A DNA stretch of 64,000 nt from NCBI RefSeq assembly GCF_900113935.1, contig NZ_FORF01000012.1, positions 1 through 64,000 on the forward strand. Direction: 5' to 3'. The stretch's first letter is position 1, and each line of letters begins with the position of its first letter. This document shows, in pieces, positions 3,504-20,395 of this stretch. Source of the stretch: Aquamicrobium aerolatum DSM 21857 (GTDB lineage Bacteria > Pseudomonadota > Alphaproteobacteria > Rhizobiales > Rhizobiaceae). Under the pieces are notes generated by a model. The model was not told where the DNA came from and searched no databases. It saw only the letters and a list, made by a program, of their open reading frames with translations. The translations under genes were made by a program, and so were the position numbers.

Positions 3504-5570
3504 TCAATCGAGCCATTCGAGCACCTTCAGGCCGCGCTTCTTGGTGTCGGAATCACACATCTCGACGGCGACGATGGCGTTGTCGATCCAGCTGATCAGC
3601 AGGGTCTCGATGACCTTGCCAGGCAGATCGAATTGCTGGCCGAGCGCCCGTGGCGCATATCGCCCGGACGCTTTTGACTGGGGTGCCATCGAGAACGGAT
3701 GTTTCGCCTTCCAGGCCTCGTCGACTGCTTTCAGGATGGCCTTGCAGGTTGTACGTGGTGGCAGAAAATCATCCGTTTGCGCCTGCTTCTCCATGGGCAG
3801 CACGACGCATGTGGTGACGGTGTCACCGTCATCGTCGACACCGAGCGCGACTGGATCAAGCTTGAAGGCAAACTCCTCGCCCCCCGGCAGGTCACGCTGC
3901 TTGGTCACTTTGGCGAGACGCGTTTCCATCTCGTCGACTGAGACCTCGATTTCGGTATCGGTCGCAGCCCTGAGCGATGAATGACCACGTGCGCCCTTGG
4001 CCGCATCCTTGCCGGTATGGTGGACGATCATGATATGGGCGCCGGTGGCATGACGGATGCGATCGATATTCTTGATGAACGCTGTCATGTCGACCGGACC
4101 GTTTTCGTCGCCACCGGCGATAACGCGCGACAGCGTGTCGATCACTATCAATTTAAGGGGCGCGCGTTTTTCAACTTCCTCGGCAAGCTTGATGACACGC
4201 TCGGTGTCGGCATCCGGATTGAGAAGATCCAGACCAGCACGGCGCAGCGCAAAGGGTACGTCCACGACGCCGCTGGTCTTTCTGAGGCCGACAATACGGT
4301 TTGCAATGCCATTGCCACCCTCGGCAGCAAGATAAAGGACCGACCCGCCTGCAACGCGCTGAGCACGCCAGGAATGATCGATCGCAACATGGTAGGCGAT
4401 ATCAAGGGCAAAGAAGGTCTTGCCAGAATTTGATGGGCCGTAGACGACCGACATGGCACCGAGATCAAGGACGTCCTTGACGATATAGGGCGTGCTTATG
4501 ACCGGACTGATATCGTCGAACCATTCCAGTTCGGCCGAGAGGTCGACTGAAGGTGATGTTTGTTCCCATATGACCCTGTGGGATCCAGTTGGCTTTTCCT
4601 TCGCCGCCGCTGCAACCTTGGTGTCCCACTGCCGCATGGCGTAAGCCCACTTTTCCCGGAAAGCAGAAAGGCCGCGCCCTTCGTTCTCGAGCGTGTTTCC
4701 AGCCTCCCGCGGACGCACCTTGCGCTCATAGACTGCATAAACCTCAAGCAGCTTCTGCTCGACTTCGGGACTGGTTGGCGGTATCGGGCATTCGCGATAC
4801 CAGTCGACGATTGCTGCCCAGACCATGTCGCGCATATAGGCATCGCGGCCATCAACGATGTGCCCCCAGGCATCAGTGATCTGGTGTGGTGATGCCTGGG
4901 GATCCGCCGCCGTCGTCTCGGCGCGTGGAGGTGATGATGATGACAATGCCGATGGCTGGGCTGGCGCAGCCGCCAGTGGCAGCGCCTCCGTTGCCCCGAC
5001 CTTGTCCAGCAGCCACGCAGGCGCTTCGGCCAGCTCCGTGTCGAAGGGCGAGAAGGTCCAGAGATATTGCTTGCCGTTCTGATGGCGCGACGGCGGGGCT
5101 ATGACAAACCCGCCTTCAGCCCGCACATCGATGCCGGCGATCGTCTCCTGCGCATTCCTGATGGAAAGATGCGCGGGATAACGAAAATAGATGTGCTGGC
5201 CACCGCCGCCGGTGCGGGCGCGCCACGTTTCAGGATCGCAGCCAAGTTCGTTGTCGGCAACCCAATGATTCCAAGTCGCGGAACCGGAGACACTGCCCTT
5301 TTCATCAAGGTCGACGACCAGCAGCTTCCAGCCATCGCCGAGTGAGGCAGCACCGGTCAGGAACCCCATGCGGTAATTGGCGCGATGTTCACCGTCGTCG
5401 CCATACCAGCGATCATGAACGGTCTGCGGAATGCCAGTCTGGAACTCACGCCATTTGCCGACCGGGATCTTTTCCCGGCCAGCAGCAGGGATCACCGCAA
5501 GGCTCAGCGCCCGATAGCTGTCGGCCCATTGGCAGGCGCTTGCAAAATCATCTGGCAATTCTACGGTCAT
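3504..5570 (-). CDS. Bifunctional DNA primase/polymerase with RepA-like AAA ATPase
   Basis: The 688-residue protein joins two domains. Residues ~15-190 form a prim-pol domain: VVDLDEKG (85-92) carries the catalytic acidic pair, GGGGQHIYFR (121-130) the conserved histidine, and IDVRAEGGFVIAPPS (147-161) the third active-site strand. After a proline/alanine-rich linker, residues ~350-600 form a RecA/KaiC-like ATPase of the AAA_25/RepA type. It has Walker A GPSNSGKT (378-385), Walker B LIVIDT (474-479) and the sensor-like HHTGK (517-521). Such proteins prime and unwind DNA for phage or plasmid replication. A repeat cluster follows the stop codon directly, suggesting a nearby origin. The ATG at 5570 is clear. 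Confidence 0.88.
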   Translation of the reverse strand: MTVELPDDFASACQWADSYRALSLAVIPAAGREKIPVGKWREFQTGIPQTVHDRWYGDDGEHRANYRMGFLTGAASLGDGWKLLVVDLDEKGSVSGSATWNHWVADNELGCDPETWRARTGGGGQHIYFRYPAHLSIRNAQETIAGIDVRAEGGFVIAPPSRHQNGKQYLWTFSPFDTELAEAPAWLLDKVGATEALPLAAAPAQPSALSSSSPPRAETTAADPQASPHQITDAWGHIVDGRDAYMRDMVWAAIVDWYRECPIPPTSPEVEQKLLEVYAVYERKVRPREAGNTLENEGRGLSAFREKWAYAMRQWDTKVAAAAKEKPTGSHRVIWEQTSPSVDLSAELEWFDDISPVISTPYIVKDVLDLGAMSVVYGPSNSGKTFFALDIAYHVAIDHSWRAQRVAGGSVLYLAAEGGNGIANRIVGLRKTSGVVDVPFALRRAGLDLLNPDADTERVIKLAEEVEKRAPLKLIVIDTLSRVIAGGDENGPVDMTAFIKNIDRIRHATGAHIMIVHHTGKDAAKGARGHSSLRAATDTEIEVSVDEMETRLAKVTKQRDLPGGEEFAFKLDPVALGVDDDGDTVTTCVVLPMEKQAQTDDFLPPRTTCKAILKAVDEAWKAKHPFSMAPQSKASGRYAPRALGQQFDLPGKVIETLLISWIDNAIVAVEMCDSDTKKRGLKVLEWLD

Positions 5571-5651
5571 CTACGCGCCCCATGTCCAAGCTCATTGTTT
5601 CGTGGTGGTGCCGGGGATCGGAAGGTGGCCGCCTCCCGATCCCCTCGACGC

Positions 5652-6308
5652 TCATCCGAAGTCCGGAACCGGGGCGCGGGCGCCGGACGCAGGCGGCGTC
5701 ATCTGGGTTGAGCCGGTCGCAGCCGGACGGCTCGTGCCGGAAGACACAGGGGTGGATGCCGGCATTGCTGCACGCGGCTTGGGCGATGCCTTGTGCTCGT
5801 CCAATTCTGCGGGGCGATCCTTCCAGTCGAGAATCTCGAACACCGGCACGGCGCGATTGCCATGCTTGGTCTTTTCCTTGATGAACTCGCTCAAGCGCAC
5901 CACCGGAACCTTGCCTTGCTGCCATTCAGGGGCGGCAATGCTCGTCTCATAGATGCGCTCCAGCGCGCCGACCACGCCGATTGCCGTTGAGCAAATCTCG
6001 TGGCAGCCAAGACCGCCCGGCAGATAGACCACCACCTGCACACCCTGCTTGTGCTTTTCGGAAGGGCGGTCAGGCAATGGATCGCCAATCGCGACCAGAC
6101 GCTTGTCGGGGCCACGATCGGTAAATTCAACCCAGCCCACCTGGAGCGTGGACCAATCCATCAGGCAAACGAGGTCATCGACCACTTCGAGGCCGCGTTC
6201 GCTGCCATCCCATGTCGATCGCTCGACGCCGCCGTCCTTGCCGTTGATGCGGATGGAGGGGAGGAAATCCTTGCTGCTTCCAATGCTTAATCCAAAACCA
6301 GTAGTCAT
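5652..6308 (-). CDS. Conserved phage protein, possibly ssDNA-binding
   Basis: The 218-residue protein starts MTTGFGLSIGSSKDFLPSIR at the ATG at 6308; a longer frame is less likely. The first ~170 residues form one compact domain with WDGSERGLEVVDDLVCLMD, VGWVEF and a terminal EILDWKDRPAEL. A disordered tail rich in proline, alanine and serine follows and ends PVPDFG. I have seen this type next to RecB-like nucleases in alphaproteobacterial phages, but it has no named function that I know. A globular domain plus a flexible tail with an acidic/aromatic tip, between a nuclease gene and a primase gene, would suit a single-strand binding protein; that is inference only. Confidence 0.65.
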   Translation of the reverse strand: MTTGFGLSIGSSKDFLPSIRINGKDGGVERSTWDGSERGLEVVDDLVCLMDWSTLQVGWVEFTDRGPDKRLVAIGDPLPDRPSEKHKQGVQVVVYLPGGLGCHEICSTAIGVVGALERIYETSIAAPEWQQGKVPVVRLSEFIKEKTKHGNRAVPVFEILDWKDRPAELDEHKASPKPRAAMPASTPVSSGTSRPAATGSTQMTPPASGARAPVPDFG

Positions 6309-6383
6309 GTTGTCAGTCTTTCTGCGCTCTGCGCTTTGTGCCGGCATCTGGCCGCCTGCTGGCCCATCCCGTGATCGGGGATT

Positions 6384-7130
6384 TCAGACGCCGAACACCT
6401 CGAACGCGTGTTGACGCGCACGTGGGTCGGCGAGATAAAAACTGTCAGTGTCGACGGTGATCAGGCTCGCCAGCTCGTGTGGATCGGTGGAGATGGCGAG
6501 GAAGTTTTGCAGCGAATGCGCCATGCGAGTCAGCGCCGCGACATGGGCTGATGCGTTCTCGAGCTGATAAAGTGCTGACTTTTTCGAGGTGACGTAGGCA
6601 ACACCGCCGCTCATGTTCGATCCGGCGCCGATATAGCTGGCGACCTGCCTTGCATGGGATGTCCGGATTGTTAACGGCAGGGCGTGGCTGGTTTTCAGAT
6701 CGATGATCAGCCCGTGTGCGTCATATTCGGCATCCGTGAAGCCGAGCACCGGGACGGCAATGCCATCCATGCGCCATTCCTTGCGCACCTGTGTACGATC
6801 GGGTTTGCCCCATGGTCCGAGCAGTTCGATCCCGCGCTCGACCATGCCAGCGAGGCTGTCACGCTCCTTGTCCCGGCGCGGATCAGACGAAAGCGCGGTC
6901 CGCTCGGTGAAAACAGCATTGGCGGTGTCGATCGCCTCTTTGAGCGAGGCACCCATCAGGCCAGCGATGACACCAGCTTCGACGGCGGTACCACGATGGG
7001 CAGCAGCCCCAACTGGAGCGCGATGGCCGAGCAGACGCTCCATCACATAAATGCCTGGAGCTGCAGCCCACAAATTAAGCTGGCTGACCGAGATGTGGTC
7101 GAGGCCGTGAGGCGCAAAGGGGTTGCTCAT
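6384..7130 (-). CDS. PD-(D/E)XK nuclease, RecB/Cas4-like
   Basis: The 248-residue protein shows the signatures of the RecB-family exonuclease fold. SVSQLNLWAAAPG (residues 15-27) is the N-terminal motif, followed by HRGTAVEAG, GFTDAEYDAHGLIIDLKTS (catalytic D and D-x-K around residues 130-150) and ARQVASYIGAG, the QxxxY-type motif. Free-standing members process DNA ends in phage recombination. The ATG at 7130 has a GGAGGACG ribosome binding site, and the start overlaps the stop of the upstream resolvase by four bases, so the two are translationally coupled. Together with that resolvase and the primase it forms a phage replication-recombination set. Confidence 0.82.
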   Translation of the reverse strand: MSNPFAPHGLDHISVSQLNLWAAAPGIYVMERLLGHRAPVGAAAHRGTAVEAGVIAGLMGASLKEAIDTANAVFTERTALSSDPRRDKERDSLAGMVERGIELLGPWGKPDRTQVRKEWRMDGIAVPVLGFTDAEYDAHGLIIDLKTSHALPLTIRTSHARQVASYIGAGSNMSGGVAYVTSKKSALYQLENASAHVAALTRMAHSLQNFLAISTDPHELASLITVDTDSFYLADPRARQHAFEVFGV

Positions 7131-7669
7131 ATCGTCCTCCCGTCGTCACCATCAGCGATGACGGTGGATCCTGGAGGCATGCGATCTGCTGACGCCTCGC
7201 CGACGATGCCGGAATGCTGAAGAAACCAGAGGCCGATCAGGGCTGCTTCTGCCCGGTTGTGATCTCGCTTGCGAGCAAAGCGATGTGACTGATCCGGCCA
7301 GGTCTGAATGGCAAGAGCCCGGATATCTTCGGCTTGCTTGGCCTTGGCGCCGATGTCGCGCTTCCAGATCGCAGGGCGGATAAAACTTGTCGGGATCTTG
7401 AGTGCCGCAAGGGCGCCTTCAAAGCTGCCTGAGGCACGACCGAAGCGGAATGTCGAGGTTAGGCCCTGTTTCGGCATTGCCGCGACATCCTCGACAACCG
7501 CATGGCTGATCCGAAACTGGCCCAGAATGTCGGCGAAGGTGATCAGGTTCAGACGCTTGTTGGCGCCTTCACCGATCACCGGGATTTCGGTTGCCAGCAG
7601 CAGACGACGCTGACAATCCAGAATGGCAATGCCGTTGTTGAGGCCCGGGTCGATGGCAAGAATAGCCAT
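7127..7669 (-). CDS. RuvC-like Holliday junction resolvase, phage type
   Basis: The 180-residue protein starts MAILAIDPGLNNGIAILD, the classic RuvC/RNase-H first strand with the catalytic aspartate in IDPG. HAVVEDVAA supplies the second acidic residue, and AKQAEDIRALAIQTWP with NRAEAALIGLW holds the last catalytic carboxylates. It would resolve four-way junctions made during element replication or recombination. The ATG at 7669 is chosen because the RuvC strand begins there; 15 further residues are open upstream but show no conservation. Its stop overlaps the start of the nuclease gene by four bases. Confidence 0.85.
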   Translation of the reverse strand: MAILAIDPGLNNGIAILDCQRRLLLATEIPVIGEGANKRLNLITFADILGQFRISHAVVEDVAAMPKQGLTSTFRFGRASGSFEGALAALKIPTSFIRPAIWKRDIGAKAKQAEDIRALAIQTWPDQSHRFARKRDHNRAEAALIGLWFLQHSGIVGEASADRMPPGSTVIADGDDGRTI

Positions 7670-7671
7670 GA

Positions 7672-7965
7672 TCAGCGCTCCGACCTGGCATTGATTGCAG
7701 CATCGACTGCACAACCAGACCCGATCCCACCAGCCTCGCGAGCCAGATTATAGAGGCGGCGCAGGGCAAACAGGCGATCGCCAGCGGCGTTGTAAGCCTG
7801 TTCGGCCTTGACGATGGCGAAGGCCACCTCATCGAGGGTCGCCACCTCTAACGGGCGCACTGAACTTGCCAGCTGGTCCGGAGCGAGGACGCAGATCGAG
7901 CTTGGCAAACCATCAAGACCGTAATGGCGTTTGCGCAAATTGTTCAGCTTGGAGGTGGCAAACAT
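7672..7965 (-). CDS. Small hypothetical protein
   Basis: The 97-residue protein is of unknown family. It starts MFATSKLNNLRKRHYGLDGL with a strong AAGGAG ribosome binding site 6 bp upstream, and it ends two bases before the resolvase start. The C-terminal half is mainly helical (DEVAFAIVKAEQAYNAAGDRLFALRRLYNLAREA) and could form a coiled coil or small dimer. Its place in a tightly packed operon supports a real gene. Confidence 0.6.
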   Translation of the reverse strand: MFATSKLNNLRKRHYGLDGLPSSICVLAPDQLASSVRPLEVATLDEVAFAIVKAEQAYNAAGDRLFALRRLYNLAREAGGIGSGCAVDAAINARSER

Positions 7966-7977
7966 CGAAGGCTCCTT

Positions 7978-8367
7978 TCAGGACCGGGACTGGCGAAGCG
8001 AAATATTGGGATTGGCGAGGCCGCCAGTTTCGTCATGCTGGGCAAGGACGCTGAGCAAGCTTGCGTGCATCTTTTTCGGGCGCGCACGGGCAATCGCCAG
8101 ATAGGCGAACCGATCAGTGGCAAGGCGGCGCTGCACGAGATGGACGAGGCTGTGTTCAAAAGCCCACCAGGCACGGCGGCCAACACGAACCAGTTCCTTG
8201 CGCTCATGCTCAAGGAGATCGCTACTGGCGCGCACGGTGTCGATTGCGAGGAACCCGCTATGGTACTGAATGGTAGTGCCGGGTGCTGACTGGCCGATCC
8301 AGGCGCAGAACTGCGCCTCGGTTAGCAGCAGCTGGGCGGCGGTGAATTTATGGGAGATCTTGTTCAT
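7978..8367 (-). CDS. Small hypothetical phage protein
   Basis: The 129-residue protein, MNKISHKFTAAQLLLTEAQF, resembles no family I can name. It contains GTTIQYHSGFLAIDT, a strongly basic helix (EHERKELVRVGRRAWWAFEHSLVHL) and a basic tail. DNA binding is possible. It is separated from the next gene by only 12 bp and is read in the same direction, so it belongs to the replication operon. Confidence 0.55.
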   Translation of the reverse strand: MNKISHKFTAAQLLLTEAQFCAWIGQSAPGTTIQYHSGFLAIDTVRASSDLLEHERKELVRVGRRAWWAFEHSLVHLVQRRLATDRFAYLAIARARPKKMHASLLSVLAQHDETGGLANPNISLRQSRS

Positions 8368-8400: not shown

Positions 8401-8976
8401 TCACGCAGGCTCCACGCCATGGGCGAGAAGCGTCAGGCGGATATCTTTCAGGCGGCGGTACAGGGTGGCGCGGGCGCCATGGCCAGAAGCGGCAAGTTGA
8501 TCGATGCTCGAGCCGACAAGGGCTACGCAAAGATGCTGATCATCGGGCTGAAGCTGCGCTAACCCGACATCGAGGCTGGTGTTGGTAATGGCCTGATCCT
8601 CGACATCAAAAGACTGGCCAAACAGCGCGCCCAATCCCTGTTCTTGCGAAAACAGATCGCCGACGACCGCGTTGTCATCACCGGCAAGCGGGGTATCCAG
8701 CGACAGAGGTGTTCGGCCATAAAGCTGGCGCTCGCGCCACACGGCGCGATCGATGCGGGTGGAACGGTGGCTGGCGACCAGCTGAGCGTAAGCCTCAAGC
8801 GGGCTGCGAGTGTGGTCGAAGGTGGGAATCCTTGCGATCAGGTCGAGCAACAGCTCCTGGCGCAGATCATCAAGATCCTGCATAGGCAGGCCGAGCCGAT
8901 GGCGTGTGCGACGTGCAACGCGGTCAGCAACATGCTGGAGGGTAGAAAGATCAGCGGGAGAGATTGGGCAGCGCAT
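8401..8976 (-). CDS. Phage RNA polymerase sigma-70-like protein
   Basis: The 191-residue protein looks like a minimal sigma factor. The N-terminal part (DLDDLRQELLLDLIARIPTFD and RSPLEAYAQLVASHRSTRIDRAVWRERQL) fits region 2 helices. The C-terminal part (LQPDDQHLCVALVGSSIDQLAASGHGARATLYRRLKDI) fits a region 4 helix-turn-helix. Proteins of this kind stand at the head of early operons in alphaproteobacterial phages. The ATG at 8976 follows an AGGTCC-like site. It could drive later phage genes; which promoters it reads cannot be seen here. Confidence 0.65.
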   Translation of the reverse strand: MRCPISPADLSTLQHVADRVARRTRHRLGLPMQDLDDLRQELLLDLIARIPTFDHTRSPLEAYAQLVASHRSTRIDRAVWRERQLYGRTPLSLDTPLAGDDNAVVGDLFSQEQGLGALFGQSFDVEDQAITNTSLDVGLAQLQPDDQHLCVALVGSSIDQLAASGHGARATLYRRLKDIRLTLLAHGVEPA

Positions 8977-9093: not shown

Positions 9094-10080
9094 TTAGACG
9101 ATACTGATATTTTCTTGCTGGATATCGAGCCTATATCCGATGCGGCGTTTGGAGATAATGAGCTTTCTCCCATGCTCGCGTGGCATGCCAGCTGCCGACG
9201 TCAGAGCACTGCGGAGATTGCTGATAACCTTTTCCAGCTGCTCAGAAGCAACTTCCTCTTTGCCTTTGGCTTTAGGCAAGCAATGGTGAAGCAAGTCGCG
9301 ATTGACAAAGCCGGCCTCATTGGCTGCCTCGTTGCTTAGGGCGACGAGAACGCTGAATTCACGCGAAGTCAAGCTAACGTCAGCACCATGAAAACATACT
9401 CGATGACCACCGGTGTCGATAAAAAGCTCCGGCTCGTCGATCGACAAGCCCTCGGGTGTGCGCAGCAGATGCAGAACAAGTGGTTCTGCAGCGCTCTCAT
9501 CGAGATGTGCATCAATTGACAAGATCTCGATCTGGGTTGCCCGCAGCAAGCGGATCACATTGCCGGGCAAATTGCGTTCAGTTGGCGTCAGAATAACAAT
9601 TGCGCCTTCATCGGCATGTCCCCGGATCGTATAGGCAAGATCGAGCGCATTCTTCGGGCGTAGCGCGCGCACCATAAAATATTGACGCCGCCTGCTACCG
9701 CTGCCGACCGCCCCGATCCGCATGGCAAAGGGGCCAAGCACTTCCACAGGTGGTCCTTCGATCCCATTAGCCTTACGGATTTGCCGGCAAACGGCAGTCA
9801 TATTGATTTCGAACTGGCGTAGATCATCTGGGGTGAGCGCATCAGCATTGCCTGTTCCATCTGCACAAAATCCCCAGACGCGGCCGCCGATGGTTTCGAA
9901 CATGATGCCATCGGCGTCCGACAATTGCGCCTCTTCAGTCAGCAATCCGAGATTCAGGAAACGCAGAAAAACGGCCGCGTCTGCAGTCTTCTGATCATTT
10001 CCATCCAGGCGACCGATCGGGTGGCGGTCACTCCGCTGCAATAGCAGCCGTGTCAGCTTGACGAGGGAGGCGGATGCCAT
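9094..10080 (-). CDS. Protein with C-terminal OmpR-type winged helix, SOS-box unit gene 3
   Basis: The last ~100 residues of this 328-residue protein form an OmpR/PhoB-type winged helix: LTSREFSVLVALSNEA, a variable loop, SEQLEKVISNLRSAL as recognition helix, and the wing KLIISKRRIGYRLDI. The first ~210 residues contain no receiver domain. They include FCADGTGNADALTPDDL and a segment IVILTPTERNLPGNVIRLL that reads like a beta-alpha unit. So it resembles a transcription regulator with an unknown sensing domain. The ATG at 10080 overlaps the previous gene by 53 bp. All three genes of the unit are read from one likely LexA-controlled promoter. I do not recognise the full architecture. Confidence 0.65.
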   Translation of the reverse strand: MASASLVKLTRLLLQRSDRHPIGRLDGNDQKTADAAVFLRFLNLGLLTEEAQLSDADGIMFETIGGRVWGFCADGTGNADALTPDDLRQFEINMTAVCRQIRKANGIEGPPVEVLGPFAMRIGAVGSGSRRRQYFMVRALRPKNALDLAYTIRGHADEGAIVILTPTERNLPGNVIRLLRATQIEILSIDAHLDESAAEPLVLHLLRTPEGLSIDEPELFIDTGGHRVCFHGADVSLTSREFSVLVALSNEAANEAGFVNRDLLHHCLPKAKGKEEVASEQLEKVISNLRSALTSAAGMPREHGRKLIISKRRIGYRLDIQQENISIV

Positions 10081-10549
10081 TGCGTGTCAAAAGCTCCATG
10101 ATTGCGTCTTCCAGTGTGCGGTCCGAGATCGTGGCGGTGTGCGGCGGGTTGATCCTCACGGTGACCGGGAAATTGTCTTCGTTGATGACGAATTGGAACA
10201 CCAGCCTCATCGAAACGACTTGAACCTCGGACAGGTTGAGATCCGGTGCTATCTCGTGCAGTTGCGCTATCGCATCATGGTTGTCTTTGCAGGTTAAAGT
10301 CCAAGGTGAGTAATGCCGGCGGCCATTGAGTACATATTCGCCGTCGTCGACCACAATTTGCTGAACCTTGACGTCCTGGACACGCTCGTCCCAATCGTAA
10401 CGGAAGCGAAAGTCCGCACCTTGATCCCGAACCGGCTGCAATGTGTAAAGCTGCTCATTCTCCCGCTTTTTGAAGAAATCGGCGTCGCCTAGCATATGCT
10501 CTGCAAATAGCGCGGCGAGCTGGCGCTGGTCACCGAGTGTCTTCGCCAT
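10028..10549 (-). CDS. Hypothetical protein, SOS-box unit gene 2 (perhaps the 3' half of gene 1)
   Basis: This 173-residue frame begins MAKTLGDQRQLAALFAEHML at the ATG at 10549. It continues with FRYDWDERVQDVKVQQIVVDD, a beta-rich middle (RRHYSPWTLTC, VVSMRLVFQFV, VTVRINPPHTATI) and a helical end. It has no family I can name. It overlaps the upstream gene by 61 bp in another frame and has only a weak ribosome binding site. The first residues read smoothly as a continuation of the upstream protein. A frameshifted single gene is therefore possible; so is genuine overlapping translation. Confidence 0.55.
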   Translation of the reverse strand: MAKTLGDQRQLAALFAEHMLGDADFFKKRENEQLYTLQPVRDQGADFRFRYDWDERVQDVKVQQIVVDDGEYVLNGRRHYSPWTLTCKDNHDAIAQLHEIAPDLNLSEVQVVSMRLVFQFVINEDNFPVTVRINPPHTATISDRTLEDAIMELLTRNGIRLPRQADTAAIAAE

Positions 10550-11253
10550 AATACCTGCCCAGCCGGACAGCGCATGCTGTCTTCGGCAATTTCGCGCCAG
10601 GCTCGAGTTTGCTCCTCCCCATCTTCCTCGACATTCGCCATGGTGGCATTGTTGCCGTGAGCCACCATAATGCGAACTTCCTCGCCTTCATCATACCAGC
10701 TGACCCGACAATAACGCCCTTGGTAGCGCTCCGAAAAATAGGCGGAAGCCGCGTTCTGGAACGCCTCACGTGCTTCTGAACTATCATGGCGGGAAGGAGT
10801 ACCAGCCGTGCCATGGAATTCCAGAATCTTGCTGCCAAAGAAAAAGGCGGCAACCTTGCGGGTTTGATCGAATATTTCCTGGTGGTCGAGGAAAGCTCTG
10901 AGCGCGATGTGCCGCGGCGTAAGATGGCGGCCATCATTTTCGTCTTTCAGTTCCTCGTCAGGTATCAACTTGATCCCGGCCGCCTCGGCGCGTTCGTGGA
11001 GAAGCCGCGCTCCTGTTGGGTTGGAAAGCATCATGATGCGATGAAGTGCATCGAGTAATTTCTTGGGGAATGTTTCATCGGCCCCACGGAATATTTCGTA
11101 GATCTCCTCCCGTCGTTCACGGTCCTCCTCAGGCAAGTCAGCCCATTTAAGCTTCTCGGCAGCATCGAATTTGTCGATCAGTCGCTTCAGAAGTTCAAGA
11201 TCAACCGTTTTGACGAATTCTCGGCTGACGAATTTCTTGATGCTCTTCTTCAT
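10489..11253 (-). CDS. Hypothetical protein, SOS-box unit gene 1
   Basis: The 254-residue protein starts MKKSIKKFVSREFVKTVDLE and is mostly charged and helical up to residue ~150. An alpha/beta part follows (YCRVSWYDEGEEVRIMVAHG, MANVEEDGEEQ). The last ~20 residues (LWRRHSVTSASSPRYLQSIC) look non-native, as if read out of frame, and they coincide with the overlap with gene 2. The family is unknown to me. The gene begins 20 bp from a GTTC-N7-GTTC LexA box and is divergent from the recombinase module, so it is probably induced by DNA damage. Confidence 0.6.
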   Translation of the reverse strand: MKKSIKKFVSREFVKTVDLELLKRLIDKFDAAEKLKWADLPEEDRERREEIYEIFRGADETFPKKLLDALHRIMMLSNPTGARLLHERAEAAGIKLIPDEELKDENDGRHLTPRHIALRAFLDHQEIFDQTRKVAAFFFGSKILEFHGTAGTPSRHDSSEAREAFQNAASAYFSERYQGRYCRVSWYDEGEEVRIMVAHGNNATMANVEEDGEEQTRAWREIAEDSMRCPAGQVLWRRHSVTSASSPRYLQSIC

Positions 11254-11273
11254 GGTGCACCCTATTTTATTTT

Positions 11274-11288
11274 GTTCCCATTATGTTC
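11274..11288 (-). promoter_or_regulatory. LexA (SOS) box, GTTC-N7-GTTC
   Basis: GTTC-CCATTAT-GTTC lies 21-35 bp upstream of the first gene of the three-gene unit. GTTC-N7-GTTC (and its complement GAAC-N7-GAAC) is the established LexA binding motif of alphaproteobacteria. The spacing puts it over the core promoter of the leftward unit; a plausible TTGATA hexamer lies just beyond it. I noticed no second box in this region. Confidence 0.7.
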
Positions 11289-11381
11289 TTTATCAAAACC
11301 TCAACAACGAGTCGAATCGGTGAGACGGTTTGACGTGGTGCTGAGTACTTGACTGGGGATAACCGTTGAGGGTGGGTCCCC

Positions 11382-11582
11382 ATGAATATTCCAAATCCAT
11401 TGCCACCAGAGCGCATGAAATCCACCGAACGTCATGCCGAACTGTGCCAGCTGCTTGCACGCGGCATCATTCGACTGCGTCAGCGCGAAGGTGCTCATCC
11501 TGTTGAAGATAATGGAGAAAGTTGCCTTCACTTCACGCCCGACCGATGCCGTCATGCAACTCCAACTCACCGGAGAATTTGA
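11382..11582 (+). CDS. Small protein at the head of the recombinase module
   Basis: The 66-residue protein (MNIPNPLPPERMKSTERHAE, then LCQLLARGIIRLRQRE) has one amphipathic helix and a conserved-looking tail (ESCLHFTPDRCRHATPTHRR). Small proteins of this shape precede DUF2924 genes in other Rhizobiales elements, to my knowledge without assigned function. Its TGA overlaps the ATG of the DUF2924 gene (TGATG), a sign of translational coupling and of a real gene. Confidence 0.6.
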   Translation: MNIPNPLPPERMKSTERHAELCQLLARGIIRLRQREGAHPVEDNGESCLHFTPDRCRHATPTHRRI

Positions 11583-12034
11583 TGACGACGCATGATCCTA
11601 TTCCCGCGCGCCTGGTGGCGCTGAAGACGGCCACAACGCCGGAACTGAAGAAGCAGTGGCGCGATCTGTTCGACAGCGAACCGCCCGCTTTTAATCGGCG
11701 CTATCTCGAAAGCAGGCTGGCCTATCGGATTCAGGAGTTGGCCTATGGCGGGCTGAAACCCTCGACAATCGAGCGGCTTGAAGCTTTGGGTGAACAGCTT
11801 GATGGCGGCAACTTGATGGTACGTCGCAACCGTGCTGACGACCGACCGATTGTCGGTACCCGCTTGATCCGCGAATGGCAGGGTGTCGAGCACACCGTTA
11901 CTGTGCTGGCCGATGGTTTTGAATGGCAGGGACGCCCTTACAAAAGCCTGTCCTCGGTCGCCCGCGCCATCACCGGCACGCGCTGGAATGGCTGGATTTT
12001 CTTCGGCCTGAAAAACCACAGGAGCCGGACATGA
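11582..12034 (+). CDS. DUF2924 family protein
   Basis: This 150-residue protein has the DUF2924 pattern: LKTATTPELKKQWRDLFDSE, FNRRYLESRLAYRIQELAYGG, then GTRLIREWQGVEHTVTVLADGFEWQGRPYKSLSSVARAITGTRWNGWIFFGL, here broken into its recognisable parts. The C-terminal part resembles a small DNA-binding or adaptor fold. The family always seems to travel with a large serine recombinase and may act as its accessory factor; this is known only from context. The ATG at 11582 overlaps the previous stop, and its own stop overlaps the recombinase start (ATGA). Confidence 0.85.
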   Translation: MTTHDPIPARLVALKTATTPELKKQWRDLFDSEPPAFNRRYLESRLAYRIQELAYGGLKPSTIERLEALGEQLDGGNLMVRRNRADDRPIVGTRLIREWQGVEHTVTVLADGFEWQGRPYKSLSSVARAITGTRWNGWIFFGLKNHRSRT

Positions 12035-13362
12035 CGAAACCTGCCATTCGCAAGCTTCGCTGCGCCATCTACACCAGAAAATCCTCCGAGGAAGGGCTGG
12101 AGCAGGAGTTCAACAGCCTCGATGCGCAGCGCGAGGCCTGCGAAGCCTATATTGCCAGCCAGCGCTCCGAGGGCTGGGTACTGGTGCGTGATCAGTACGA
12201 TGACGGTGGTATTTCCGGCGGCACGCTGGAACGCCCGGCACTGAAACAGCTGCTGGCCGATATCGAGGATGGACTGGTCGACGTGGTGGTCGTTTATAAG
12301 ATCGACCGCCTGTCGCGCTCCTTGATGGATTTTTCCAAGCTGGTCGAGGTGTTTGACAGAAATGGCGTCACCTTCGTCTCCGTCACCCAGTCGTTCAACA
12401 CCACCACCTTGATGGGCAGGCTGACGCTGAACATCTTGCTGTCCTTTGCCCAGTTTGAACGCGAGGTCACGGCCGAGCGCATTCGTGATAAGTTTGCCGC
12501 CAGTCGCAAGAAAGGCATGTGGATGGGCGGTGTTGTTCCGCTGGGTTATCGGGTGGAAAGCCGCAAGCTGGTAATCGAGGAAACCGAGGCTGCCACGGTG
12601 CGCATGATCTTCGAGCGGTTTGTAAGCATTGGCTCGGCAACGGTTTTGGCAAAAGCTCTGGCTGCCGAGAATGTTCGCACCCGCCGGGGCAAACTGGTCG
12701 ACAAGGGTGTTCTCTACAAGCTCCTGAACAACCGGGTCTATATCGGTGAGGCCGTGCACAAGGGCAAAAGTTATCCCGGTGAGCACAAACCGATCATCGA
12801 TCGTGCTCTTTGGGACAAGGTTCGTGCCATTCTTCAGACCAGCCCACGCAAACGCGCCAGCAACACGCGGGCGCAGACGCCGGCCCTATTGAAAGGTCTG
12901 ATTTTTGGTCCTGACGGCGCTGCATTCTCGCCGACCCACACAAAGAAGGGCGACAAGCTTTATCGCTATTATGTCAGCCAATCGGTGCTGAAACGCGGGG
13001 CCGATGCCTGTCCGATCGCTCGTGTGCCGGCCGCAGAGGTGGAGAACGCCGTCATTGATCAACTGCGTGGACTTCTACGAGCACCGGAAATTATCATCGG
13101 CACATGGCGTGCGGCTCGGTCGGAAATTGAAGACCTGCCAGAGGCCGAGGTTCGCGATGCGCTGGAGCGGCTCGATCCGATCTGGGACGAACTGTTTCCA
13201 GCGGAGCAGGCCCGCATTGTTCAGCTTCTGGTCGAGCGGGTTGATCTTGCCACTGACGGCCTTTCCATCCGCCTGTGCACGCTAGGGTTGGCCGGCCTTG
13301 TTGCGGATCTTGGCACCATAGGGTCGGATCGGAAAAACTCTGACAACAGGAAGGCAGCATGA
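12031..13362 (+). CDS. Large serine recombinase
   Basis: The 443-residue protein starts MTKPAIRKLRCAIYTRKSSE. The resolvase catalytic domain (~10-160) has YTRKSS with the nucleophilic serine at 18, VVVYKIDRLSRSLMDF and the arginine-rich FEREVTAERIRDK. A recombinase DNA-binding domain follows (GVLYKLLNNRVYIGEAVHKG). The usual zinc ribbon is replaced by a segment without cysteine pairs (LIFGPDGAAFSPTHTKKGDK), which appears normal for the DUF2924-linked subgroup. A short helical end completes it. It cuts and rejoins DNA through a serine-linked intermediate and is the probable integrase or excisionase of this element. The open frame extends upstream to 11923, but the ATG overlapping the DUF2924 stop is the start. 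Confidence 0.9.
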   Translation: MTKPAIRKLRCAIYTRKSSEEGLEQEFNSLDAQREACEAYIASQRSEGWVLVRDQYDDGGISGGTLERPALKQLLADIEDGLVDVVVVYKIDRLSRSLMDFSKLVEVFDRNGVTFVSVTQSFNTTTLMGRLTLNILLSFAQFEREVTAERIRDKFAASRKKGMWMGGVVPLGYRVESRKLVIEETEAATVRMIFERFVSIGSATVLAKALAAENVRTRRGKLVDKGVLYKLLNNRVYIGEAVHKGKSYPGEHKPIIDRALWDKVRAILQTSPRKRASNTRAQTPALLKGLIFGPDGAAFSPTHTKKGDKLYRYYVSQSVLKRGADACPIARVPAAEVENAVIDQLRGLLRAPEIIIGTWRAARSEIEDLPEAEVRDALERLDPIWDELFPAEQARIVQLLVERVDLATDGLSIRLCTLGLAGLVADLGTIGSDRKNSDNRKAA

Positions 13363-13769
13363 GTATAACAGCTTCCGTCACCAGTGATCACGACACCATC
13401 ACCGTGCATGTGCCGCTCACGTTCAACAAGCGCGGTGGGCGCAAGCAGATCGTCCTGCCCGATGGCACATCGTCATGGGCGCTGCCACGTGCTCGTGTCG
13501 ACAACACCATGGTGAAAGCCATCGCCCGTGGCTTCCGCTGGCGCAAGCTGCTGGAAACCGGCGTTCACACCACAGTTGAGGACATTGCCCGAGCCGAGAA
13601 AATCAGCTCCTCCTATGTCAGCCGCGTCCTACGCCTGACCCTGCTGGCGCCTTCAATCGTCGAGGCGATCCTCGATGGCAGACAGGGGCGGGATATCACG
13701 CTGGCGACGCTGATGAAGCCATTTCCACTGGAGTGGGAGAGGCAGTCGGCATCGCTTTGTATGCTGTAA
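13359..13769 (+). CDS. HTH protein of the recombinase module
   Basis: The 136-residue protein has an N-terminal strand region (TITVHVPLTFNKRGGRKQIV). It then has a helical domain with a helix-turn-helix: FRWRKLLETGVHTTVEDIAR, then AEKISSSYVSRVLRLTLLAP. It finishes with LDGRQGRDITLATLMKPFPLEW. The HTH resembles those of ParB-type and phage proteins. It is the usual fourth gene after DUF2924-linked recombinases and may control the module or bind its sites. Its ATG overlaps the recombinase stop by four bases. The last few residues (SASLCML) may be altered by the junction with the following restriction-modification segment. Confidence 0.75.
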   Translation: MSITASVTSDHDTITVHVPLTFNKRGGRKQIVLPDGTSSWALPRARVDNTMVKAIARGFRWRKLLETGVHTTVEDIARAEKISSSYVSRVLRLTLLAPSIVEAILDGRQGRDITLATLMKPFPLEWERQSASLCML

Positions 13770-13894: not shown

Positions 13895-16800
13895 ATGAAC
13901 CATACAAATACGGCCAATGCTGATTCGAGCATTTTTGACAGTCTCACCGAACTGATCCTGAACTTGGCTCCCGATGACGGTTCCTCCATCGGTAACGGGG
14001 CCATGCTGGCTCTGCTGCGAGAGCACATACCCGACCTTACCGAGGACGACTATATCACTGCGCGCGATGCACTGATCGATGAGGATGTGCTCGGGCGTGG
14101 CAAGGGACGAGGCGGGTCGATTTTTCGCGTTACCGACGATCTGGGCGATGAGGATGGCGACCTGGACGAGGATGAGGGCGACGAGGACGATGGGTTCGAA
14201 CTGACCCATACCGAAGAGGCCGCGCCGCGAATGCCCCGGACCAAAGCCGGGAAGAAGGTCGCGCGCAGGCCGGACGGGCCGGTGCAGGTGCTGTCCTACC
14301 GCCACGGAGAGACGCGGGTGAACAACCCCGAGGTCGGGATGGTGCATGCCGGCACCGATCCGGATGGGGACAAGACGGTCTGGGCCTACGACCCGCATCT
14401 CGACCCGGTGCTGAATTTCGACTCTGCGCGGGCGGGGATCGAACGGCTCATCGACGAGGCGCTGGCCAGCGGTGATCTCGAAAAGATGCGCGACGCGCTT
14501 CAGGAACTGAAGCGGCTGCAGGCACCCTATCTCAACTGGACGGGCAAGGCGGAGCGGACGAGCGTCGCGGTCGATACCGTCTCGCTGCATGTCCACGAAC
14601 GGGTGGACCCGGCGACGATCCTTGCCAATGCGGCGAAGCGGCTGACAGGGAAGGATGCCGCGACGCAATGGCGGCAGCCGGACCTGTTCGCAGCGCCGTT
14701 CGAGAACCTGCCGCTGCGCCAGGCGCTGGATTTCTACCACCACGAAAAGGGCTGGTCGAACCGACTGGTGGCGGGCGACAGCCTCTTGGTGATGAACTCG
14801 CTCCTGACCAAGGAGAGCATGGGCGGCAAGGTGCAGATGATCTACATCGACCCGCCCTACGGCATCAAATACGGGTCGAACTTCCAGCCCTTCACGAACA
14901 AGCGCGACGTCAAGGACCGCTCGGACGACGACCTGACCCAGGAACCCGAGATGATCAAGGCGTTCCGGGACACCTGGGAACTCGGCATCCACTCCTACCT
15001 CACCTATCTGCGTGACCGGCTGATGCTGGCGCGGGAATTGCTGACCGAGAGCGGATCGGTGTTCGTGCAGATCTCGGATGAGAACCTGCATTACATCCGC
15101 TCAATGATGGAAGAAATTTTCGGTATGGATCGCTTCGTTGCGATTGTGCCATTTCGGAAGAAGCTGATGCCCTTGGGGGCAAAGACGCTTGAACAAATGT
15201 CCGATTTCTTGATCTGGTTTTGCAAAGACCCGTCAAAAATCAAGTATCGTCATATTTACCGAGAAACCTTGCCCGATGCAAAAGGCCGCTGGACTGGGAC
15301 GGTTGATGACAGGGGGAACTTACGACGGCTCACAAAAGAGCAGCGTCAAGAGCTTAGAGATGGCATTGCTCCAAAGAACATCTTCGGCACGATCTCACAA
15401 TGGGCACCATCGTTTTCTGAAGAAGGTGTATTCTCATTTGAACTTCATGGCGAAACCTACAAGCCGACGGGTGGGCAGTGCTGGGTTGCCTCGCCCGAAA
15501 AGATGGACCGCCTGCGATTTGCAAATCGGCTGTTCGTCGAAGGAGATTTCCCGCGGTTCGTCAGTCCGCATACTGACTACCCCTACGCAAAAATCACCAG
15601 TCCTTGGCATGACACTGCCCCAGCGTCAGGCAAAACTTACGTTGTGCAGACCAATGAAAACGTAATCGAGCGGTGCATGGTCATGTGCACCGACCCCGGC
15701 GATCTGGTGCTCGATCCCACCTGCGGCTCCGGCACCACAGCCTTCGTCGCCGAGAAATGGGGGCGGCGCTGGATCACCTGCGACACCTCTCGCGTGGCGA
15801 TCACGCTGGCCAAGCAGCGGCTGATGACCGCCAGCTTCGACTACTACGCGCTGCGCTATCCGCACGAGGGGCTGGGGGGCGGATTCGACTATGAAACCGT
15901 CCCGCACATCACGCTGAAAAGCATCGCCAACAACCCCGACATCGACACGATCTATGACGAGGACCACCCGAAGATCGCAGCGGCGCTGGAGGGCCTCAAC
16001 GCAGCACTGAGCGCCGCCCCGCCGAAGCCGCTCAAGCCCACGCAGGGCGTGCGCAAGGGCAAGCCGGTGGACTTCGCCAAGGGCGACACCCTGCACGAAT
16101 GGGAGGTGCCCTTCGACTGGCCGGACGATTGGCCCGAGGCCGCGCGCGCGCCTTTCGACACCTTCCACGCCGCCCGTCAGGCGATGCAGCGCCGCATGGA
16201 TCAAAGCATCAGCGACCATGCCGAGCAGGAGACGCTTTACGACAAGCCCCGCATCGACAAATCCAAGCTGCGCATCTGCGGGCCCTTTTCGGTCGAGGCG
16301 GTGCCCGCGCCGACCGTCCTGTCGCTGGACGAAAGCATCCCGCCGCAAGAGGCCGACGAGACCGTCGCCCGCTCCGGCGAGACATCTCGCCAGGCGCTCT
16401 GGCGCGACGAACTCCTGAAAACCGGCGTGCGCGGCAAGGGCGGCGCGATGCTGCGCTTCGCCGAGTTCGAGACGCTGCCGGGGCTGAAGCACATCCACGC
16501 CAGCGGATCGCTGACTGATTCGGGCGAGCGTGTCGTCGTCAGCTTCGGCCCCGAGCACGCGGCGCTGGAGCAGAGGCAGGTGGAACTGGCGCTGACCGAG
16601 GCCGAGACCCTGCGCCCGTCGCCGAAATTCATCCTGTTCTGCGCCTTCACCTTCGACCCGGAGGCCGCGAAGGACATCGACGAGGTGAACTGGCCCGGCG
16701 TCACGCTGCTGAAGGCGCAGATGAACACCGACCTTCTGACCGAGGATCTGAAGAAGGGCCGCAGCTCGAACCAGTCCTTCTGGCTGATGGGCCAGCCCGA

Positions 16801-17167
16801 TGTGGACCTGCGCAAGCGCAAGGACGGGCTGTGGGAGGTTCAGGTCAACGGCTTCGACTATTTCGATCCGCGCAAGGGCGATCTGGTCTCGGGCGGCACC
16901 AGGCAGATCGCGATGTGGTCGCTGGACGTGGACTATGACAACCGATCCCTGATGCCGCATCAGGTGTTCTTCCCCATGGCGGATGCCAAGGGCGGCTGGA
17001 ACCGCCTGCGCAAGACCGTGCGGGCCGAACTGGACGAGGACCTGCTGGAGCAGTTCCACGGCACCGTCTCGCTGCCCTTCGAGGCGGGAGAGAACCGCCG
17101 GATCGCGGTCAAGATCGTCGATGATCGCGGGATCGAGTCGCTCAAGATCATGTCGCTGGAGGGATAA
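13895..17167 (+). CDS. Type III-like DNA methyltransferase (Mod)
   Basis: The 1090-residue protein is a beta-class adenine methylase. Motif IV is YIDPPYGIKYGS (317-328), then the target recognition region (~410-590), then motif I DPTCGSGTT (607-615). That order defines the class. Before the catalytic part lie a winged-helix-like segment (residues 1-80) and a very acidic linker (82-100, mostly D and E). After it come ~450 residues without a motif known to me. It would methylate one strand of an asymmetric site and guide the following helicase-nuclease. Codon use is markedly GC-rich, except in the recognition region, which is AT-richer. It is separated from the restriction gene by four bases. 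Confidence 0.9.
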   Translation: MNHTNTANADSSIFDSLTELILNLAPDDGSSIGNGAMLALLREHIPDLTEDDYITARDALIDEDVLGRGKGRGGSIFRVTDDLGDEDGDLDEDEGDEDDGFELTHTEEAAPRMPRTKAGKKVARRPDGPVQVLSYRHGETRVNNPEVGMVHAGTDPDGDKTVWAYDPHLDPVLNFDSARAGIERLIDEALASGDLEKMRDALQELKRLQAPYLNWTGKAERTSVAVDTVSLHVHERVDPATILANAAKRLTGKDAATQWRQPDLFAAPFENLPLRQALDFYHHEKGWSNRLVAGDSLLVMNSLLTKESMGGKVQMIYIDPPYGIKYGSNFQPFTNKRDVKDRSDDDLTQEPEMIKAFRDTWELGIHSYLTYLRDRLMLARELLTESGSVFVQISDENLHYIRSMMEEIFGMDRFVAIVPFRKKLMPLGAKTLEQMSDFLIWFCKDPSKIKYRHIYRETLPDAKGRWTGTVDDRGNLRRLTKEQRQELRDGIAPKNIFGTISQWAPSFSEEGVFSFELHGETYKPTGGQCWVASPEKMDRLRFANRLFVEGDFPRFVSPHTDYPYAKITSPWHDTAPASGKTYVVQTNENVIERCMVMCTDPGDLVLDPTCGSGTTAFVAEKWGRRWITCDTSRVAITLAKQRLMTASFDYYALRYPHEGLGGGFDYETVPHITLKSIANNPDIDTIYDEDHPKIAAALEGLNAALSAAPPKPLKPTQGVRKGKPVDFAKGDTLHEWEVPFDWPDDWPEAARAPFDTFHAARQAMQRRMDQSISDHAEQETLYDKPRIDKSKLRICGPFSVEAVPAPTVLSLDESIPPQEADETVARSGETSRQALWRDELLKTGVRGKGGAMLRFAEFETLPGLKHIHASGSLTDSGERVVVSFGPEHAALEQRQVELALTEAETLRPSPKFILFCAFTFDPEAAKDIDEVNWPGVTLLKAQMNTDLLTEDLKKGRSSNQSFWLMGQPDVDLRKRKDGLWEVQVNGFDYFDPRKGDLVSGGTRQIAMWSLDVDYDNRSLMPHQVFFPMADAKGGWNRLRKTVRAELDEDLLEQFHGTVSLPFEAGENRRIAVKIVDDRGIESLKIMSLEG

Positions 17168-17171
17168 GCCC

Positions 17172-20305: not shown

Positions 20306-20395
20306 TGGCGGAGGGAGTGGGATTCGAACCCACGGAGACATCACTGCCTCGCCGGTTTTCAAGACCGGTGCCTTAAACCGCTCGGCCATCCCTCC
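20306..20395 (-). tRNA. tRNA-Ser (anticodon UGA)
   Basis: The minus strand reads as a full class II tRNA of 90 nt including an encoded CCA. The acceptor stem GGAGGGA pairs with TCCCTCC and is followed by discriminator G. The anticodon arm ACCGG-TCTTGAAAA-CCGGC holds UGA. The long variable arm is typical of serine, and GGTTCGAATCC is the T-arm. Its 3' end faces the accessory region, the usual orientation for island insertion. Confidence 0.95.

Follow-up and report, generated by a model that had tools for sequence, protein, structure and literature searches.

The locus

The DNA considered here is a 64,000-nucleotide stretch of Aquamicrobium aerolatum DSM 21857 (contig NZ_FORF01000012.1, positions 1 to 64,000), referred to below as the window. 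Between positions 9094 and 11288 it contains a leftward unit made of a LexA-type box followed by two genes, named A and B, which belong to nameless protein families. The box, GTTCCCATTATGTTC at 11274-11288, is an exact GTTC-N7-GTTC, and 20 bp separate it from the ATG of A at 11253. An earlier note on this DNA had correctly placed the box just upstream of the unit, at a distance of 21 bp, which is one too many. It had also counted three genes, whereas there are two; its first two open reading frames (ORFs) are the halves of one gene of about 415 amino acids (aa). The locus quite probably opens the early (lytic) operon of a temperate prophage of siphovirus type, which would be induced in the SOS response through the LexA of the host. 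This reading is built on the box, its position and conservation, its exchange with a lexA gene in related loci, the gene order, the absence of Peptidase_S24 from ten related records, and predicted folds.

Gene A as a single gene

In Chelativorans sp. Marseille-P2723, which is syntenic with the window from the recombinase module through the primase, the first two ORFs of the window form one ORF of 415 aa. In the order, 11 of 397 genomes (the own genome among them) have a match to A, and the eight full-length matches outside the own genome are single open frames. Moreover, DNA alignment reveals a net gap of 10 bp in the window exactly where the frame shifts. The intact ORF, the single-frame relatives, and the gap rule out two separate genes, and from its sequence the A of the window appears to be either a broken gene or the product of a faulty assembly. 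The locus L092 from IMG/VR shares this gap; it seems, however, to come from the same strain and therefore does not exclude an assembly fault.

Further A-like sequences are found elsewhere. The Chelativorans genome G749 has a second, distant A homologue with 27% identity (C13:1304352-1305056), perhaps from a second prophage. Loci L088 (7928-5763) and L090 (8260-6077) encode proteins of 721-727 aa with a partial A-like stretch, next to the same recombinase module and with no recognisable B; these are perhaps fused or replaced A-B proteins.

The LexA box and its conservation

Passages of a published study give GTTCN7GTTC as the LexA consensus of Caulobacter (PMC12700426). A bare GTTC-N7-GTTC is weak evidence and proves little by itself. 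The window has six exact copies where 2.25 are expected, and the lone motif was dropped as proof of LexA control since three of 100 shuffles reach the same six; genome-wide, there are 148 copies against 103 for the reversed control. The box gains weight because of its position, its likeness to the boxes of its own genome, and above all its conservation before A. The SOS boxes of the genome include those of ssb (GAACATAATAAGAAC), imuA (GAACAAATAGAGAAC), uvrA (GTTCGCTCTCTGTTC), and lexA (GAACACAAATGGAAC), which lie approximately 36-124 bp before the starts, and the ssb box is the most similar to that of A. The genes ssb, uvrA, and imuA were named by reading translations, and lexA by a family match. 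The recA of the genome has a one-mismatch site only, and the genome encodes a single LexA.

Relatives of the unit were found by A alone, and the box was never used in the search. The searches covered the order, the phylum (with a profile; 29 of 398 genomes), and IMG/VR, where 23 loci, the best 80 of 118, and at least 18 were obtained, corresponding to 116 different loci. The DNA was read around 149 A loci, and 134 with distinct upstream regions were retained after dropping 15 duplicates, although near-copies remain among them. Upstream of A, 97 of the 134 loci carry the exact motif (GAAC-N7-GAAC on the operon strand), 20 have a LexA gene directly upstream, and 17 have neither. Thus, 117 loci have one or the other before A, and no locus has both. 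In random 290-bp windows of the same loci, in either orientation, the motif is present in 633 of 26800 (2.4%). The gap between box and A ranges from 16 to 144 bp across the box loci. When only A proteins below 90% identity are counted, the 71 that remain comprise 41 with the box, 19 with lexA, and 11 with neither.

The genes that replace the box encode recognisable LexA proteins. The one in L079 contains LexA_DNA_bind and Peptidase_S24 domains and scores 172.3 with the NCBIfam lexA model (cut-off 110.95). An alignment of the LexA proteins encoded upstream of A shows the Ala-Gly site in 18 of the 20, G-x-S-M in 19, and the lysine motif in all; these are the LexA cleavage residues. The Ala-Gly exceptions are L083, with Gly-Gly in that column, and L189, a fragment. 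Palindromes such as CCTAA-n-TTAGG lie before the phage lexA in L075, L081, and L040, with imperfect ones seen by eye in L077, L079, and L083, and are possibly its own operator.

On the A tree, four box rows (L041, L084, L201, and L203) fall within the lexA branch with strong support, and the lexA locus L107 stands beside box rows with weaker support (95/72). The box state needs eight changes on the tree (shuffled mean 23.0) and the lexA state four (17.1), and none of 500 shuffles is as low. The loci with neither are hardly clustered (nine changes against 10.5; 48 of 500 shuffles). As the box rows occupy two parts of the tree split by lexA rows, the control has changed at least twice. The box and the lexA gene are exchanged and never found together, which is the pattern expected if selection keeps LexA control. 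From these sequence comparisons, LexA control of the unit is in all likelihood real.

Of 132 loci with sufficient sequence, 130 have a B gene no more than 4 kb from A, and the frame of B crosses the end of A in 125. The earlier note had proposed to look for homologues that occur singly and without a box, and the figures for box, lexA, and B do not go against its claim. It had also suggested checking whether a trio is conserved along with the box; what is conserved is a pair of genes behind the box or, instead, a lexA gene.

Promoter region

Among the box loci, the spacer of the box prefers A/G, T, and A at positions 1-3. A GACTC element begins 23-25 bp before the box in 55 of the 97 box loci, against 151 of 9700 random 50-mers in the control. 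It is perhaps a -35 box, which would place the LexA box over the -10 region. A second conserved element, TACTCA-N14-CGTYYCA, occurs in 44 of 96 box loci, in six of 15 loci with neither box nor lexA, and in none of 20 lexA loci. Its spacer is exactly 14 in 50 of 50 hits with 8-22 allowed, and its control count of 644 in 29800 is inflated by the sites themselves. It may be a second operator or a divergent promoter. A role as attachment site is ruled out, as the element is uninterrupted in integrated copies, where it lies between the recombinase module and A.

Proteins A and B

Neither the two A ORFs of the window, searched separately against PHROGs and Pfam, nor the intact A relatives, searched against Pfam, PADLOC, and NCBIfam, gave a match that exceeds a curated cut-off or has an E value below 0.001. 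The best stray match in these searches is Hydrolase_6, with E 0.031 and below its cut-off. The lack of a recognised family for these ORFs, as claimed earlier, therefore stands. The A profile gives only three chance matches (E 0.49-0.68) in a sequence search of solved structures, and tblastn with three queries each found no A homologue in the phage collection or in plasmids, one of the plasmid queries being the 5' ORF.

The AlphaFold model of an intact A relative was built with 48 sequences and has a predicted local distance difference test score (pLDDT) of 85.6 and a predicted template modelling score (pTM) of 0.73. Its top match is Escherichia coli RdgC, by Foldseek (2owl_B, E 2.9e-5, TM 0.35/0.46) and by VIA (2owy_A, Z 11.2 over 225 residues, root-mean-square deviation 5.2). 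RdgC is followed by CENP-N/CENP-L, where the chain names CENP-L and Chl4 were assigned partly from chain letters, and the viral structure library adds phage RdgC proteins. The VIA-align rows mainly span residues 127-396 of A, and RexA is absent from the rows listed. No sequence match of A to the RdgC family (PF04381) was found in Pfam. A is thus predicted to share the fold of RdgC and not its family. By sequence, A was rejected as a member of the RdgC family or of RexAB, with an hhalign probability of 0.4% and no kinship to RexA.

The C-terminus of B is an OmpR/PhoB winged helix by predicted fold (model pLDDT 88; Z 13.2 to BaeR), as the earlier note had proposed, and the VIA-align rows mainly span residues 216-322. 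The Pfam score of this domain in the window, 23.7 bits, falls short of the cut-off of 26.2, and that in L012, 33.7 bits, exceeds it. The B of the window also matches phrog_731, of unknown function, over the winged helix (E 4.2e-4), and no receiver domain was found in B by Pfam. At least four cysteines occur in the first 120 residues of 40 out of 50 B proteins, mostly as C-x2-C-x-C plus one more. This stretch probably binds zinc; the motif is lost in the branch of the window's B (L001, L093, and L098-L106).

Prophage context

Table 1. Features of the unit and its surroundings in the window.
Feature	Position	Strand	Remarks
Early/replication genes	3504..8367	-	Two small conserved proteins, RuvC-like protein (by reading), two more, primase
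Prim-Pol/DUF3987 primase	3504-5570	-	Domain match (Pfam) in the relative L001
Sigma-70 region 2-like protein	8401..8976	-	Follows B directly in most relatives; Pfam 24.8 bits, cut-off 24
Gene B	9094..10080	-	OmpR/PhoB winged helix at the C-terminus, preceded by an alpha/beta domain in the middle and an N-terminal region; the end of A overlaps with it
Gene A, 3' part (second gene of the earlier note)	10028..10549	-	Remainder of the RdgC-like part
Frame break in A	10567..10568	-	Net 10-bp gap against an intact relative
Gene A, 5' part	10489..11253	-	Helical domain at the N-terminus, then the beginning of the RdgC-like part; last residues out of frame past the break
LexA box	11274..11288	-	GAACATAATGGGAAC on the operon strand; 20 bp before the A start codon
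TCGACTC, putative -35-like element	11309..11315	-	GACTC position conserved among box loci
TACTCA-N14-CGTCTCA conserved element	11321..11347	-	Between the box and DUF2924
DUF2924 protein, divergent	11582..12034	+	ORF listed from 11522; start at 11582 by likeness to L001
Large serine recombinase	12031..13362	+	
Small ParB-HTH-like protein of the recombinase module	13359..13769	+	Weak matches only
Type III restriction-modification cargo	13895..19967	+	Mod 13895-17167 (PADLOC match); Res to 19967 by reading
tRNA-Ser(TGA)	20306..20395	-	Beside the right end of the element; possible integration site

In most relatives, B is followed by the sigma-70-region-2-like protein and small proteins, and then by an AAA_24 ATPase or a RuvC-like protein (by reading); in the window and in L001, a Prim-Pol primase follows as well. 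A DUF669 label given to one gene by reading was dropped as it has no Pfam match. One record of 52.9 kb with the unit carries TerL, portal, head protease, decoration, tape measure, and tail genes, and is of siphovirus type.

No Peptidase_S24 was found in ten chosen box-type records of 45-58 kb, where other repressor types were not searched and the records may be fragments. The LexA of the host is therefore the only obvious cleavable repressor in these ten records, and it is most likely the repressor of lysogeny. In five of the ten, the box of A is the only exact site. The comparison as a whole, with the box or lexA before A, B at its side, replication genes behind, and the siphovirus-type record, supports well the induction switch that was one of three roles considered in the earlier note.

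The module divergent from the unit consists of DUF2924 and a large serine recombinase on the forward strand, in agreement with the earlier description, and lies within 4 kb in 99 of 109 A loci with enough upstream sequence, with ten exceptions. Another of the roles considered, control of element excision as such, was not borne out: the recombinase module is divergent, and no link between it and the box emerged. The region beyond the module looks like a slot for defence cargo, as nine of ten proteins picked there by eye match PADLOC models. It contains type III restriction-modification (RM) in the window, type I RM in L247, L009, and L207, Orf5/HEC-06 in L009, methylases in L010 and L011, and a SIR2-type protein in L039. 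A survey of Paracoccus prophages clusters 11 serine recombinases with unknown integration sites (PMC6536676), and these recombinases may belong to the same phage family as the unit.

Proposed mechanism and related systems

In the resting state, LexA would sit on the box, over the presumed -10 region, and block A, B, and the replication genes behind them. Upon DNA damage, RecA filaments would trigger the self-cleavage of LexA and the promoter would open. A and B would be made first, followed by the sigma-like and replication genes. In the sister branch, the LexA encoded by the phage directly before A would do the same job. A would bind DNA and either stabilise the lytic state or temper RecA, in the manner of the RexA of lambda or the RdgC of E. 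coli. Such a role is plausible and the most likely one for A, and we infer it from the RdgC-like fold and the place of the gene in the operon. B would activate or time later phage promoters, and from its predicted winged helix it most likely serves the next step of transcription.

The closest known logic, by analogy, is that of GIL01, a tectivirus of Bacillus, for which passages of a published account describe the LexA of the host as lysogeny repressor in place of a phage one (PMC6182141). In GIL01, the host LexA takes the place of a dedicated phage repressor in blocking the early replication genes, and SOS induces; the same is proposed for the present unit. In contrast, GIL01 is, as described there, a linear extrachromosomal tectivirus with the co-repressor gp7 and the activator gp6, whereas the elements described here are integrated, of siphovirus type, and have a serine recombinase and the A-B pair. 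PSOSP predicts SOS-dependent prophages by a LexA site in a prophage promoter, which similarly treats LexA binding within the prophage as a general switch; the passages of that paper at hand contain no mention of an A-B pair, Alphaproteobacteria, Rhizobi-, or RdgC (PMC12527982).

E. coli RdgC (2OWL, 2OWY) resembles A in the predicted fold of the C-terminal two thirds. In contrast to RdgC, A has no sequence kinship to it, has an extra N-terminal helical domain, and is a phage gene under presumed SOS control. According to passages of a published study, RdgC reduces RecA functions including LexA cleavage, and the RdgC-like RexA of lambda favours the lytic state (PMC11077077). Like A, whose RdgC-like fold is predicted, RexA is a phage protein of that fold with its gene next to the repressor gene in an operon, and it tips the switch to lysis as A is proposed to do. 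On the other hand, RexA is described as being made in lysogeny from PRM and its partner RexB is a membrane protein, whereas B has a winged helix. The eukaryotic kinetochore proteins CENP-N/CENP-L (yeast Chl4/Iml3) are related to A by fold only. B shares its C-terminal winged helix with OmpR/PhoB regulators such as BaeR, VicR, and CovR; in contrast to them, no receiver domain was found in B by Pfam, and cysteines are present in most B proteins, although not in the branch of the window.

A further proposal, which is rather doubtful, is that of a widespread temperate phage family that has lost a dedicated CI-type repressor, in which LexA, of host or phage and exchanged between them in evolution, holds A-B as a one-way SOS latch. 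A would be a DNA clamp of RdgC/CENP-N fold. After the cleavage of LexA it would silence the RecA signal again or fix the lytic state, while B would relay the signal to later promoters.

Alternative explanations

Several observations weigh against an SOS-induced phage switch or against its working in this genome. The 17 loci with neither an exact box nor lexA include three with a one-mismatch box (L119, L150, and L169), two cut by the contig end (L089 and L100), one degraded (L087), and the two with divergent 721-727-aa proteins, which leaves nine without either (L037, L039, L163, L184, L190, L191, L194, L196, and L204), L190 being one whose upstream region was read in part. L037 has a B fragment only. 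An HTH_3 domain over its cut-off occurs in one of the ten box-type records, so there may be another repressor, and these records have 19 exact sites against ten reversed, so that single extra sites mean little. For the fold of A, the hhalign probability above was obtained against 18 RdgC sequences and is similar to that of the null control, A against B (0.2%), and the TM-scores for three RdgC chains are 0.32-0.46. Finally, the A of the window is broken by the frameshift, and therefore this copy may not complete the programme; broken A copies are also found elsewhere, with a stop in four phylum-wide matches. The contig of the window starts inside the replication genes and ends, on that side, before any capsid gene would be reached.

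The last points bear on whether the box and unit are a decayed remnant without function in this genome, for which the chances are nearly even and which is compatible with an SOS switch in the family at large. The frameshift and the contig start favour decay, and the Chelativorans relative seems, as read from translations, to stop shortly after a portal-like gene. Against decay, B, the downstream genes, and the recombinase module are in open frames, the box is present, and the 10-bp gap may be an assembly fault. It is also conceivable, though somewhat unlikely, that A and B are replication or partition proteins, for origin binding or as a DNA clamp, with no part in the decision, which would likewise be compatible with LexA control. 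The folds of RdgC and CENP-N/CENP-L are those of DNA- or chromatin-bound proteins; the pair also lies directly before sigma-like, ATPase, and primase genes. However, A has a dedicated partner with a regulator-like winged helix, and no replication domain was found in A with Pfam or NCBIfam.

It is unlikely that A and B are a module for defence or exclusion, induced by SOS and placed at the prophage front, with abortive infection like that of RexAB. The RdgC-like fold is shared with RexA (PMC11077077), the order lexA-A-B recalls cI-rexA-rexB, and the element holds defence-type cargo beyond the recombinase. Nevertheless, three A and three B proteins have no PADLOC match (0 families at E up to 1), which goes against the abortive-infection system considered in the earlier note; B has a winged helix and RexB is a membrane protein, A has no sequence kinship to RexA, and the pair heads the replication operon instead of lying in the cargo slot. 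Improbable, too, is a box that only looks LexA-like and is the operator of B, or of another phage regulator, with B repressing its own operon. Even though B is a protein of DNA-binding type in the same operon and a nearly constant neighbour of A, the motif equals the LexA consensus and the SOS boxes of the host, and 20 of the 37 loci without the exact box have a LexA gene before A with B still present.

Significance

With an SOS-induced early operon as the preferred reading, the unit would be a phage induction switch of a known kind, with unnamed proteins and an exchange of the repressor source that is unusual. In the literature, at the level of titles and abstract starts, no description of the A-B pair or of an exchange between LexA box and lexA gene before it was found, and DUF2924 appeared in three papers, which by their titles all concern Wolbachia. 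The analysis offers a first functional frame for two protein families that the libraries searched do not name and that occur at more than 100 loci, mostly in viral-contig records. If the one-way SOS latch is true, it would differ from the CI-Cro pair of lambda. One and the same operon is found with the box for host LexA in one branch and behind a phage LexA gene in another, and never with both. This natural experiment makes it directly testable whether temperate phages can run on host LexA alone, and also why proteins of RdgC fold keep turning up at phage switches.

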